In this document: positions 15,010 to 20,800 of the stretch, piece by piece
How positions within the stretch are numbered: the first letter of the stretch is position 1
Layout: every line of letters starts with the position of its first letter
Assembly: GCA_013001695.1 (NCBI GenBank)
Contig: JABDMC010000156.1
Coordinates: forward strand, 1 to 64,000
Direction of reading: 5' to 3'
DNA: 64,000 bases
Source of the DNA: Akkermansiaceae bacterium
GTDB taxonomy: Bacteria > Verrucomicrobiota > Verrucomicrobiia > Verrucomicrobiales > Akkermansiaceae
Notes under the pieces: model-generated
Database searches by the model: none
Told to the model about the DNA's origin: nothing
Seen by the model: only the letters and a program-made list of their open reading frames with translations
Program-made: the position numbers and the translations under genes

Positions 15010-15638
15010 CCGCCGCAATCGAGACCCGCTGGCTCGGATCCGGCGTGGATTTCCACGAGGCCCTCGCCGTCCAGCGGGACCTCGTCGCGCAGCGCCTCGC
15101 CGGGGCCGTTCCCGACACCCTGCTGCTTCTCGAGCACGCCCCGGTCTACACCATCGGCCGCACCCGGGACCGCTCGTCGCTGCACGACCCGGCCCTCCTT
15201 CCGCATCCCGTCGTCGAAATCAACCGCGGCGGGCAGGCCACCTACCACGGTCCCGGCCAGCTCGTCGGCTACCCGATCGTTGACCTCCGCAACCACGGCC
15301 GCGATCTGCACCTCTACCTCCGTCTCCTCGAAGGCGTCCTGATCGACACCCTCGCGGACCACGGCGTGACGGCCGGACGGCGAGACGGGCTCACGGGTGT
15401 CTGGGTCGCGGACCGCAAGATCGCCTCCCTCGGCATCGGCGTGCAGAAGTGGATCACCATGCACGGCTTCGCGCTCAACGTCACCGCCGAGTCGCTGCCC
15501 CCCTTCCTCGCCATCACGCCCTGCGGCATCGCGGACGTCGCCATGACCTGCCTCGAGGCCGAAGCCCGCCAACGCCACGGGGTCCGCGACGTCGCCAAGG
15601 CCCTCGCGGCACGCCTCGGCGCGGCCCTCGCCCCCTGA
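15006..15638 (+). CDS. lipB: Lipoyl(octanoyl) transferase
   Basis: LLLLEHAPVYTIGRT, INRGGQATYHGPGQLVGYPIVDLR, GVWVADRKIASLGIGVQKWITMHGFALNV. ATGA overlap with ruvC. Confidence 0.95.
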   Translation: MTAAIETRWLGSGVDFHEALAVQRDLVAQRLAGAVPDTLLLLEHAPVYTIGRTRDRSSLHDPALLPHPVVEINRGGQATYHGPGQLVGYPIVDLRNHGRDLHLYLRLLEGVLIDTLADHGVTAGRRDGLTGVWVADRKIASLGIGVQKWITMHGFALNVTAESLPPFLAITPCGIADVAMTCLEAEARQRHGVRDVAKALAARLGAALAP

Positions 15639-15818
15639 CCCGGGCGCCCTCCCGCGGCGTGGTTTTCCCCGCGATCCGTTCGCCCTCAGCGCTTTGCGCC
15701 CCGCGGCCCGCGTCGATAGTCGGCATGCGTTGAGGAAGGGGGCGAAAGCTTGTCACGAAGGACTCTTGCCCTGCGGGGGGATGCGTGCCGAAATGCGACC
15801 AGTCGATAAGGAGGGAAT

Positions 15819-17681
15819 TTGGCAACGCGAACCTACAAGATACTGTGTGTCCACGGCGTGGGCCGTCACGAGCCGGGCGGGCGCTGGGAGAAGGAATGGT
15901 CCCGGGACATTCGCCGGGCCCTCGCGGACCTCGACGGCGACCTGAAACCGAAGATCTCCTTCGCCCATTACGACGACCTCTTCGAGACCCGCCGCATCTC
16001 GGCCCTCGATGTCATCGGGGCCCTCGGCAAGCTCGGCTGGAGCGGACTGACGGCCATGTTCCGCGGGGGCGCCCGCGGGCTGCGCAGCCGCACCGCCGGG
16101 GCGCGCCTCAAGTGGACCGCCGGCATGGTGGTCGAATGGGTCGAAGACAAGAACTTCCGCGCCCAGCTCGCCGCGCGCGTCCGGAAACGCATCGAGAAGG
16201 ACAAGCCCGACATGATCATGGCGCACAGCCTGGGATCGCTCATCTGCTACGACATCTTCAGCCAGAGATCCGGAGCGAAGCTCATCGAGAACCGGATCTT
16301 CGTCACCTTCGGGTCGCAGATCGGAAATCCCTTCGTCCTCGGGAACTTCGCGGCAGGCCGGATCCTCCCCCTCTCCGGGGCCAGGTTCTGGTTCCACCTC
16401 TACAACCGTTTCGATGACGTCTTCACGGCGCGCGTCCGCCTGGCGGCGCGGAACTTCGTGGAGATCGACACCCCCTTCAACCACAAGGGCTGGGGCGACC
16501 ACTCACCGTCGCGGATCAACGGGCGGCCCGGCTACCTCGCCCACCCCGAAACGGTGGAAGGCATGTGGGCCGAGGTGGCCCTCTCGCGGCGCAAGTCCGC
16601 CACCTTCGCCCTGAACCCGGTCTCGCTGACCACCCCCCGCGGCAAGAAGGAGTCCCTCCAATGGGCCGTCACCGATTCCTTCCGCGCCCTCCTCATCGGG
16701 ATCGATGCCTACCCCGCCCCCGACATGCAGCTCGAGGGCTGCCGGAACGACGTCTTTCTCGTCAGCGAACTCCTGCAGGAACTGGGGCTTCCGGCGGGAA
16801 GCGTCCGCGTCCTGCTCGACAGCCGCGCCACCGCCGCCGCGATCCGGGAGCGCATGGAATGGCTCCTCGAGGGCGTCGGCGAAGATGACGAGCGCTTCCT
16901 GTTCTTCAGCGGACACGGCGCCCAGATCCCCGGCTACGGCCTCGGCGAAGTCGTGGATCGCCGCGACGAGGTCCTCGTCCCGTGGGACTTCGACTGGACC
17001 CGCCAGAACGCCATCCACGATGACGGGTTCTACGAGCTCTACTCGAACCTCCCCTACAGCTCGCGCTTCACGGCGGTCTTCGACTGTTGCCATGCCGGCG
17101 GAATGACCCGCGACGGTGCCATGCGGGTGCGCGGGCTCAATCCGCCCGATGACATCCGTCACCGCGTCATGGCGTGGCACTACGATGACCGCTCGAAGCG
17201 GAAGGACCCCGACGAGTGGGACCTCCGGGAACTGGAGCTTCCCGCGAACCAGATCTACCGCCACATCAACCAGCTTCCCCCTCCCGGCCGGAGCGGGTCC
17301 GGTTCGGCCTACTGCTCGACGCATCGCCTCGGCCAGGCCATGACCCTGCGCGAGTACGGTCCAGGCGGCCGCGACCGCTTCCGGAAGCTGGCCAAGAGCC
17401 GGGGCCACCGCGGCCCCTACATGCCGACCCTGTGGTACGCGTGCCAGGAACGGGAGTTCGCCATGGAGTACCGGCAGGGATCGGCGAGTTACGGGGCCTT
17501 CACCTGGTCCTTCGTGCGCCTCGTGCGCGAAATCCGGAAGCAACAGGAGATCCGCTCCGCGAGCCAGATCGAGAAGCACCTCCAGTCCCGCGTCCAGGCG
17601 ATCAACCCGAGCCAGATGCCGCACCTCATCGCCCCCAGCGCGGTCCGGAAGAAGCCGCCCTCGTGGATCCTGCCGCACTAG
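15819..17681 (+). CDS. Fusion protein: N-terminal alpha/beta-hydrolase (lipase-like) domain + C-terminal caspase-like (peptidase C14) domain
   Basis: TTG start behind AAGGAGGG SD. N-half: ILCVHGVGRHEPGG...DMIMAHSLGSLICYDIF (nucleophile-elbow-like). C-half: RALLIGIDAYPAPDMQLEGCRNDVFLVSELL...FLFFSGHGAQIPG...FTAVFDCCHAGGMTR (catalytic His/Cys of caspase-like peptidases). Confidence 0.9.
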   Translation: MATRTYKILCVHGVGRHEPGGRWEKEWSRDIRRALADLDGDLKPKISFAHYDDLFETRRISALDVIGALGKLGWSGLTAMFRGGARGLRSRTAGARLKWTAGMVVEWVEDKNFRAQLAARVRKRIEKDKPDMIMAHSLGSLICYDIFSQRSGAKLIENRIFVTFGSQIGNPFVLGNFAAGRILPLSGARFWFHLYNRFDDVFTARVRLAARNFVEIDTPFNHKGWGDHSPSRINGRPGYLAHPETVEGMWAEVALSRRKSATFALNPVSLTTPRGKKESLQWAVTDSFRALLIGIDAYPAPDMQLEGCRNDVFLVSELLQELGLPAGSVRVLLDSRATAAAIRERMEWLLEGVGEDDERFLFFSGHGAQIPGYGLGEVVDRRDEVLVPWDFDWTRQNAIHDDGFYELYSNLPYSSRFTAVFDCCHAGGMTRDGAMRVRGLNPPDDIRHRVMAWHYDDRSKRKDPDEWDLRELELPANQIYRHINQLPPPGRSGSGSAYCSTHRLGQAMTLREYGPGGRDRFRKLAKSRGHRGPYMPTLWYACQEREFAMEYRQGSASYGAFTWSFVRLVREIRKQQEIRSASQIEKHLQSRVQAINPSQMPHLIAPSAVRKKPPSWILPH

Positions 17682-17828
17682 GCCGCCAGTTGGAACACCG
17701 CGGGGGGCGGCGCGTGGCTTTTTATCCGTTCACCGCAACGACCGCGAACGGCGCGACGTTCAACCTCATCACCGATTGAGCCCGGCAGTTCATCGTCGCG
17801 GATGGCACCGTGGCCGGCGCGTCTTTCC

Positions 17829-20800
17829 TCACGCGCCCCAGCCTCCGCCGCCGGGGGTGTCGATGCGGATGCGCTCGCCCGGCCGGACCTCGAAGCTCGT
17901 GATCGGCGCGAGGGGTTCGGCGCGGCCGTCGGCGCGGATCAAGACCTGCGCGCCCGGGGCCCCGTCCGCCCCGCCTTCGGCCCCGTGGGGGCCGCGCACC
18001 CGGCGCTGCGTCAGGAAGGAGACCGTCATGGGCTCGAGGAACTCGATCTCGCGGCGGAGTCCGTCGCCGCCCCGCCACTTCCCGGCCCCACCCGACCCGC
18101 GCCGCAGCGAAAACTCGCGGACCCGCACCGGGTAGCGCCACTCCAGGATCTCGGGATCGGTCACGGCGGTGTTGCTCATGTGGACGTGGGTGCCGCTCAT
18201 CCCGTCCCACCCCGGCCCGGCGCCGGAGCCCCCGCCGAGGGTTTCGTAGAATCCGAAGCGCTCCGTCCCGAAGAGAAAGTTGTTCATGGTCCCCTGGCTG
18301 TTGGCCTGCAGGCCGAGGGCATCCAACAGGACGTCCACCACCCGCTGGCTCGTCTCGACGTTCCCCCCGACAACCGCCGGGCAGGCCGCGGGGTCCGCCG
18401 CGAACTCCGGGTTCAGGATGCCCGCCGGCAACCGGATCTCGACGCCCTCGAGGAGCCCCTCGTTCAGCGGAAGGTCGTCTTCCGTCCACACCCGCATGAC
18501 GTAGAGCACCGCGCTGCGCACGATCGCCGGGGTGGCATTCAGGTTGCCCGGGTGCACCGCCCCGCTGCCCGCGAAATCGACCGTCAGGCCGTGCCGGCCG
18601 GCTGTCACGGTGACGCGGACCGGCGTCCCGTCGTCCATGGCGTCGTCGCCGGTCCAGCGCCCGTCCGGCCGGGTGGCCAGCGTGGCGGCCATCGCGGACG
18701 CCGCCCGCGCGAAGAGGGCCTCCATGTTGCGCGTCACCGCCTCGCATCCCGCGGGCCGGCACAGGTCCCGCACGGCCTTGACCCCGTGCCGGTTGGCGGC
18801 CGTCTGCGCGGCAAGGTCGGCGAGGTTGTCGTCCACGGCGCGGCTCGGGAATGGTCCCCCGCGCAGGAGGGCTTCGATTTCCGCGACGTGGTCGGTGCCG
18901 CCATCGACGAGGAGGAGCGGGGGGATCACCACCCCTTCCTCGCCGAGGGAGGATGCCGTGGCGGGCATCGAACCCGGGGTGCGCCCCCCGAGCTCGGCAT
19001 GATGGGCGCGGTTCGCCACGAAGGCCACGAGGCGCCCGTCGCCGAAAAACACCGGGCTGATGACCGTGATGTCCGGCAGGTGCGAGCCCCCGAAGGCGGG
19101 ATGGTTCACCACCACGGTGTCACCGGGTTTCCACTCCCGGCCATCCGAGACCTTCCGCACACACTCCCCCAGCGCCCCAAGGTGCACCGGGATGTGGGGG
19201 GCATTCACCACCAGCCGCCCCCGGGCATCCAGCAGGGCGCACGAGAAATCGAGCCGCTCCTTGACGTTGGTCGAGATGGCGGTGCGCCGCAGCAGCTCCC
19301 CCATCTCCTCGACGACATTCTCGAAGCGGCACCGGAACAACTCCGCCTCGACCGCCTCGGACCAGCCGGCGGATTCCCGGGCCGCGCCCTCCCGGCGCAA
19401 CCACAGCGACCCCCGCTCCCCTTCCGCCACCGACCAGCCGGGTTCGATGACGCAGGTCCGGAAGACATCCTGGCGGAGCACCCGCGCCGCGGCGGGGGGC
19501 GACCACGCCCCGAACGATTCCGCCTCGACCGGCTCGGCCCGTTCCGCCCCGACGACCCGCACCGCGACGACCTCCACGGCCCGGCCCGCCGGGGGCGCAT
19601 ACCCATAGAGCTTCTCGTATTCCGCGCGGAAACCGTCGGCGAGCATGGCGCCCTCCACCCGGGCCGCGAACTCCAGCTCGAGGGTGCTGTCCTGGCCCGC
19701 GAGCCGCATCTCGAACAGGCTGCGGGCCACCACCCCGGCCGCCCCCAGCGCCGCGAGGGCCTCGGCTTCCATCTCCGCGAGGAGGCCGTCGAGGCGCCCC
19801 GACAACTCCTCGAGGGGGGCCAGCACGAGGCGCTCCACGATCTCCTCCCGTCCCGACCGGTCGAGCCCCCAGGCGCTGAGCAATCCCGCATCGGACGGCA
19901 CGAGGATGTCGCGCACCGCGAGCTTCTCCGCCACCGCGCACGCATGCTGCGGGCCGGCCCCGCCGAATGCCACCAGTCCGTAGTCCGAGGGATCGTAGCC
20001 TTCGCGCAGCGACACCTTCCGGATGGCGTCCGCCATGCGTTCCACCGCGATGGCCCGCAGGCCCTCCAGCAACCGCTCGTCATCGGCGGCCTCCGCCCCG
20101 GCGGCGCGCAGGGATTCCTTCAAGCCCGCCAAGGCCGCCCGCGAGGCCCCGGGGTCGAGCGGGATCCCCGCCCGCGACGGATCCATGCACCCCAGGAGAA
20201 GATTCACGTCGGTCACCGTCAACGGCCCGCCCCGCCCGTAGCACGCCGGCCCCGGATCGGCGCCCGCGCTCTCCGGGCCGACTTCCAGCCCGCCGTGGCG
20301 CCACTGGCAGATCGACCCGCCCCCGGCGGCCACGGTCTCCATCCTGACGGCCGGCACGAGAACCCGCACCGGCCCGATCTGCTGCTCGTAACGCAGGCGC
20401 GGCCGGTCCCCGATGCGGGCCACGTCGGTGCTGGTCCCGCCCATGTCGAAGGAGAGCACCCCGCGCCACCCGGCGGCCCGCCCCGCCGCCTGCGCCCCCA
20501 CCACTCCCCCGGCCGGGCCGCTGAGGAGGCTGTCCACCGGGCGGTAGTTCCCGGACGGTTTCAGGGCCCCGGCGCTGGTCATGAGCGACACCGGACCGCC
20601 GCCCAGGGGGTCCTCCACCCCGCGCACGAACCCGTCCATGATGGGTGCCAGGTAGGCATTCGCCACCGCGGTCTCGGCGCGCGGCAGGAGGCGCATGGCC
20701 GGCGTGAGATCCTGCGATGGCGAGACGTGCCGCACCCCGGCGCGCTCCAGCATCTCCGCGACGCGGCGTTCGTGCGCCGGGTTGGCGTAGGAATTCAGGA

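Follow-up and report, generated by a model that had tools for sequence, protein, structure and literature searches.

Pairing of a caspase-family protease with an alpha/beta-hydrolase is already known in bacteria. In the vWA-MoxR-VMAP ternary conflict systems described by Kaur, Burroughs, Iyer, and Aravind (2020, PMC7159879), a caspase never occurs without an alpha/beta-hydrolase gene next to it. A 2020 review (PMC7475262) lists three cyanobacterial orthocaspases (Osc7112_0662, Cri9333_0714, and Nos7107_1322) with an abhydrolase and a caspase p20 domain in one protein, for which "dual specificity" was suggested there, and a Chitinophaga pinensis metacaspase with a GDSL lipase and an amidase (PMC3501461) likewise has a lipase-type enzyme and a caspase in one protein. 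The canu system (PMC12799240) pairs a caspase-family protease with another hydrolytic effector that it is thought to cut at disordered insertions, and provides proof of principle that a caspase can activate a gated partner enzyme.

The gene described here lies in a 64,000-nucleotide stretch of DNA from an Akkermansiaceae bacterium (the window) and encodes the same two enzyme classes as the vWA-MoxR-VMAP systems, the hydrolases being compared by description. The window has them in one chain, a relative (L153) has a two-gene version, and no vWA, MoxR, or VMAP genes lie beside the window gene, whose neighbours are lipB and hydantoinase A/B. We infer that the fusion protein is related to the caspase and alpha/beta-hydrolase pairs of these conflict systems. 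Two of the three cyanobacterial orthocaspases are reportedly membrane-bound, whereas the present family, compared by description, has no obvious transmembrane part and, unlike those abhydrolase-annotated proteins, goes unrecognised by the Pfam Abhydrolase models (one weak match, to Abhydrolase_6, in 76 family members). The C. pinensis protein has another lipase fold and is a single protein, whereas ours belongs to a family; the canu partner is an MBL-fold nuclease encoded by a separate gene and its protease a MALT1-like caspase with Ig, whereas the fusion protein has its serine hydrolase in cis, with no MBL-fold pro-nuclease gene beside the fusion gene in the window. The type I/II metacaspases of C14B (TbMCA2, AtMCA4, and AtMCA9) resemble the fusion protein in fold, His-Cys dyad, and acidic S1 pocket, but have a short pro-domain where it has an N-terminal hydrolase enzyme and, after the Cys, a family-specific insert. 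We found no prior description of this fused family in the literature searched, a scope that mostly excluded subscription papers. As judged from modelling and conservation, one chain joins a serine alpha/beta-hydrolase to a metacaspase with an acidic S1 pocket, both intact, and about 90 patchily distributed homologues share this arrangement.

The fusion gene and its two halves

The sequence-only reading, made before any database search, had proposed a single 620-aa frame joining a lipase-like half to a caspase-like half. This was borne out: the reading frame is uninterrupted over its 620 codons (Table 1), and every motif then quoted is in the protein (ILCVHGVGRH at residues 8-17, DMIMAHSLGSLICYD at 131-145, FFSGHGAQ at 362-369, and FDCCHAGG at 421-428). 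The neighbours are also those it had named, with lipB 5' in the same orientation and, 3', a hydantoinase A/B fusion gene running convergently (Pfam). The gene is single copy in its own genome, its product is the sole Peptidase_C14 match across that genome, and a promoter and terminator scan of the gene found none.

Table 1. Features of the fusion gene and its product (window coordinates; counts are homologues in the 89-sequence alignment).
Feature	Position	Strand	Basis
Hydrolase-metacaspase fusion gene	15819..17681	+	620 aa, TTG start; ORF, Pfam, family alignment, AlphaFold2
Shine-Dalgarno-like AAGGAGGG	15808..15815	+	3-4 nt 5' of TTG start; sequence
N-terminal alpha/beta-hydrolase domain, aa 1-262	15819..16604	+	AlphaFold2 pLDDT 89.8, pTM 0.89; conservation
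Oxyanion-type HG motif, His12-Gly13	15852..15857	+	H12 84/89, G13 87/89
Disordered loop aa 82-98 with Arg86-Gly87, candidate metacaspase cleavage site	16062..16112	+	pLDDT <50 at 83-91; Arg-Gly 62/89
Nucleophile Ser137 (AHSLGS)	16227..16229	+	85/89
Catalytic acid Asp199	16413..16415	+	89/89
Catalytic His228	16500..16502	+	87/89
Interdomain linker aa 255-287, Lys/Arg-rich	16581..16679	+	Family composition; low pLDDT at 268-281
Metacaspase-type Peptidase_C14 domain, aa 288-610	16680..17648	+	Pfam 289-605, E 4e-24; Foldseek top matches metacaspases
Asp311, aligned with TbMCA2 S1-pocket Asp95	16749..16751	+	89/89; PMC4357240
Catalytic His366 (SGHG)	16914..16916	+	89/89
Asp422, aligned with TbMCA2 S1-pocket Asp211	17082..17084	+	89/89; PMC4357240
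Catalytic Cys424 (DCCH)	17088..17090	+	89/89
Family-specific insert aa 431-470 after Cys (R..RGLNPPDDIRHR..W...W..R)	17109..17228	+	Family alignment

AlphaFold2 modelled the whole chain from a 76-row alignment with a pLDDT of 85.1 and a pTM of 0.88, and structure prediction upheld the proposed hydrolase fold of the N-terminal half (pTM 0.89), with Ser, Asp, and His canonically placed and conserved across the 89 homologues. In the N-domain model the HG motif comes after the first strand, Ser137 between strand 132-136 and helix 138-147, Asp199 after strand 190-195, and His228 after strand 213-217; in the model, this order of residues and strands is that of a canonical alpha/beta-hydrolase with a nucleophile elbow. 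A Pfam scan of the window protein found no domain in the hydrolase half, and a PDB sequence search with that half found no relative. Foldseek matches to the N-domain alone were weak, an uncharacterised Legionella protein and poorly superposed azoreductases ranking first and Bacillus lipase A and cutinase lower (probability 0.93-0.95, E about 0.02-0.03); naming the hydrolase by structure was dropped, as the top matches were spurious or uncharacterised and the lipases stood further down. Going by topology and conservation, the N-terminal half is a hydrolase, probably from a family absent from Pfam and the PDB. Its substrate, given the fold and the partners described below, would most plausibly be a lipid ester, of a membrane lipid.

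The complete Ser-Asp-His triad is present in 84 of the 89 aligned homologues, which indicates that selection acts on the hydrolase half as an enzyme. The notion of a degenerate pseudo-enzyme, suggested by loss of the Ser in three of the first six sequences, was dropped on this count. Active-site losses comprise Ser to Gly in three relatives that keep the caspase, loss of the His in one, and Ser to Asp in L097.

In a Foldseek search with the whole chain, the metacaspases AtMCA4 and AtMCA9 came out on top (E 5e-14). Metacaspases cleave after Arg or Lys, often in a Ca2+-dependent manner. Window residues C308, D311, S364, and D422 align with Cys92, Asp95, Ser156, and Asp211 of TbMCA2, the proposed S1 pocket of that enzyme (PMC4357240). 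Because the acidic residues D311 and D422 are invariant, the protease of the fusion protein is predicted to cut after Arg or Lys and not to have caspase-like Asp specificity. "Caspase-like", as this half was first called, therefore stands for the fold and the intact His-Cys motifs, but the acidic S1 pocket makes "metacaspase" the proper term. The R..RGLNPPDDIRHR insert that follows the Cys was not seen among the caspase-only proteins inspected; it contains a second conserved Arg-Gly, Arg438-Gly439, a candidate autoprocessing site. Going by their motifs, both halves look catalytically competent.

Distribution of the family and probable replacement at the locus

A single-sequence scan of GTDB contigs found no homologue. 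A six-row profile scan of the same contigs gave 428 loci, of which the best 80 were used, nearly all spanning almost the whole query; these and the whole-genome matches make up the 89-sequence alignment, with homologue genes called mechanically as ORFs and genome collections sampled. This search for the same architecture, drawing on the best 80 of 428 loci and the genomes, yielded about 90 collinear homologues in more than 10 bacterial phyla, with the caspase dyad in 89/89 and the hydrolase triad in 84/89. The phyla among the best 80 of 428 loci are Pseudomonadota, Planctomycetota, Verrucomicrobiota, Gemmatimonadota, Thermodesulfobacteriota, Nitrospirota, Nitrospinota, Acidobacteriota, Bacteroidota, Myxococcota, and others. 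Two loci (L054 and L062) come from metagenome bins that bear the titles Klebsiella pneumoniae and Bordetella parapertussis; L062 clusters among relatives from environmental betaproteobacteria, so these titles may be mislabelled. The homologue from G440, a genome of the same class, does not differ from the one in a "Verrucomicrobiota bacterium" record (L077 and L100).

The sequence-only reading had set its effector interpretation against a constitutive, housekeeping distribution, and what we found is sparse and patchy: the fusion gene is absent from all 14 congeneric genomes and present in 6 of 387 sampled genomes of the order and 5 of 384 of the class. In the tree, the window protein pairs with a myxococcal sequence (SH-aLRT 90) within a set from Pseudomonadota, Planctomycetota, and Myxococcota, and is not grouped with homologues from its own order. 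In the seven congener stretches read, the gene order is DEAD-helicase, (ruvC), and lipB, then EF-G-like and isochorismatase-like genes, with hydantoinase A/B next in all five stretches that reach that far. Compared with L116-L128, positions 15638-17829 of the window lack the EF-G-like and isochorismatase-like genes and hold the fusion gene instead; the best EF-G match in the genome is only 49% identical to the EF-G-like gene of the congeners. The absence of these two genes, with the fusion gene in their place, suggests that it replaced other genes at the lipB-hydantoinase locus, in an event old enough for composition to match, as its G+C and GC3 agree with those of the flanking genes. On the same grounds we rejected a recent foreign gene as judged by composition. 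Carriage on plasmids or phages was likewise rejected: a plasmid search gave no match to the fusion gene, and a phage search gave no full-length copy and one contig with the caspase part alone. That contig (LR745208.1, a 485-kb uncultured phage contig) has, at 346126-346599, a caspase-like stretch 36% identical to window residues 289-446, without the hydrolase.

The protein might be an ordinary physiological enzyme, acting in lipid or envelope turnover or in the quality control of proteins, a role suggested for some metacaspases, and not in defence. Most copies standing alone on chromosomes, the lack of plasmid and full-length phage copies in the searches, and the match in composition to the neighbours would all suit such an enzyme, but it sits poorly with so sparse a distribution, missing in 14/14 congeners and with the nearest relatives in other phyla, with the replacement of other genes at the locus, and with the SIR2/STAND company of one relative (below), and we regard it as improbable.

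Related architectures and gene neighbourhoods

In L153, a caspase gene is followed, with a 4-nt overlap, by a standalone hydrolase gene whose product matches the N-domain profile (E 9e-19). Four relatives (L089, L094, L097, and L154) have an extra N-terminal Phosphoesterase domain (PF04185), which we take to be the family of non-specific phospholipase C, ahead of the hydrolase and caspase. These three-enzyme chains are about 1000-1120 aa long; the one at L154 (4125-7343) has degenerate hydrolase motifs. L002 (1507-4218) and L015 (601-3312) encode 903-aa proteins with a broken hydrolase Ser, an intact caspase, and a C-terminal trypsin (in L015 by alignment). An extra fused enzyme is present in 4/6 members with a broken triad versus 2/84 with an intact one (Fisher p 8e-5, uncorrected for ancestry; p 4e-4 after rough collapse of sister sequences), and since it occurs mostly where the triad is broken, we suggest that the hydrolase acts as an effector whose loss is followed by replacement.

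This association bears on whether the hydrolase half might instead be a regulator that, by binding a lipid or acyl ligand or turning it over, controls the metacaspase as the true effector. The caspase dyad is never lost, whereas the triad is broken in 5/89 and in L154, and in conflict systems a binding role is described for many peptidase domains (Kaur et al. 2020, PMC7159879); catalysis is nonetheless usually kept, and the extra enzymes gather in broken-triad members as if replacing an effector, which makes a purely regulatory hydrolase quite unlikely.

The neighbourhoods of the homologues vary. L133 (938-10538) holds an operon-like run of a 429-aa protein, the hydrolase-caspase, SIR2_2, nSTAND1-WD40, and a second caspase, which looks like an immune operon. 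Eight loci have an astacin-type metallopeptidase cluster close by, which in six of these lies immediately 3' on the gene's own strand, and patatin (L035 and L047), trypsin, C70 protease, or caspase neighbours occur in a few, counts that have no matched background. As the best candidate, the astacin-type cluster, occurs in 8 loci only, a universal operon partner was rejected. Directly 3' of a Ser-less hydrolase-caspase at L132 (5435-8104) is an 889-aa protein with its own HSAGS (GHSAG-type) motif and a second caspase, possibly an independent fusion. Most loci showed no recurrent partner or sensor gene, and comparison of the neighbours with PADLOC gave few, scattered, and mostly generic matches. 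The earlier statement that the gene "stands alone" holds for the window, where no adjoining sensor gene was found, and for most homologues, but fails for some. Against PADLOC, the window protein matches the "caspase" model only (E 1.4e-19). Assignment as an EACC1-associated caspase (NF047832) was rejected at 32.4 bits against a curated cut-off of 140, and with it, the neighbour matches being scattered, membership in a named defence system.

The added third enzymes (phospholipase C and trypsin) and the changing hydrolytic neighbours (astacin, C70 protease, patatin, and caspase) can also be read as a stack of destructive activities, in which the two halves are independent warheads, made and activated together with no cleavage between them, the metacaspase cutting proteins of host or phage and the hydrolase cutting lipids. 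That reading does not account for the Arg-Gly loop, the basic linker, or the way the halves keep their order and spacing, and we consider it unlikely.

Linker, Arg-Gly loop, and a possible gating mechanism

The interdomain linker is 21% Lys/Arg across the family versus 12% protein-wide, contains at least one Lys or Arg in 89/89 homologues, and ranges from 22 to 58 residues in length, the order of the halves being constant. Within the hydrolase, loop 83-91 is the lowest-confidence stretch of the AlphaFold2 model, and its Arg-Gly occurs in 62/89 homologues versus 29.6 expected from per-loop shuffling (standard deviation 4.1; maximum of 2000 shuffles, 42). An Arg/Lys-specific metacaspase could cut both the linker and the Arg-Gly loop. 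L097, which has lost the hydrolase Ser, has lost the Arg-Gly too, and its close relatives L089 and L094 keep it; L002 and L015 have lost the Ser but kept the Arg-Gly. Among the few standalone hydrolases inspected, most are without the Arg-Gly and at least one has it: L145, a standalone hydrolase not known to adjoin a caspase, yet carries the motif, which could instead be structural. Basic linkers, moreover, are common in disordered regions. The loop and linker are consistent with a gated hydrolase and support it, but do not prove it.

Our best explanation, held tentatively and at a little under even confidence, is that the fusion protein is a cytosolic self-damage effector, triggered by stress or infection, in which the Arg/Lys-specific metacaspase sets free or switches on the hydrolase joined to it. 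A trigger, perhaps Ca2+, a partner, or the product of a sensor gene lying elsewhere, would activate the metacaspase; this would then cut in the basic linker, the Arg-Gly loop, or both, and the hydrolase, so freed or opened, would in turn cleave an ester, most plausibly of a membrane lipid. In its favour are the triad in 84/89 and dyad in 89/89 homologues, the canonical fold and residue order, the overlapping gene pair of L153, the phospholipase-C-type and trypsin fusions, the patatin neighbours, and the L133 operon with SIR2_2, nSTAND1-WD40, and a second caspase; so are the basic linker, the Arg-Gly loop, the invariant S1 residues, the rarity in relatives, the published caspase/hydrolase pairing (PMC7159879), and the canu precedent (PMC12799240). 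Against it count the lack of a recurrent neighbour or sensor gene in most homologues, the few and generic PADLOC neighbour matches, an Arg-Gly that is possibly structural, how common basic linkers are, and the broken-triad relatives; the weak lipase fold match counts against its lipid-cutting part. The sequence-only reading had offered a protease-activated lipase or a two-warhead effector, and the Arg/Lys-rich linker, the Arg-Gly loop, and the split two-gene version, all circumstantial, lean towards the former. That the family is an undescribed, widespread group of single-chain caspase-activated lipases, in which a cut at the Arg-Gly gate or linker leads to membrane-lipid hydrolysis as a cell-death programme, is a bolder proposal that we rate as somewhat unlikely.

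The pairing reported by Kaur et al. came without a mechanism, and the single-gene version opens the partnership to testing with just one plasmid and two point mutants. Should the metacaspase indeed switch the hydrolase on, bacteria would possess a caspase-triggered attack on membrane lipids that needs no pore-former, and caspase-activated lipases would be the lipid-cutting counterpart of the caspase-nuclease (canu) systems.
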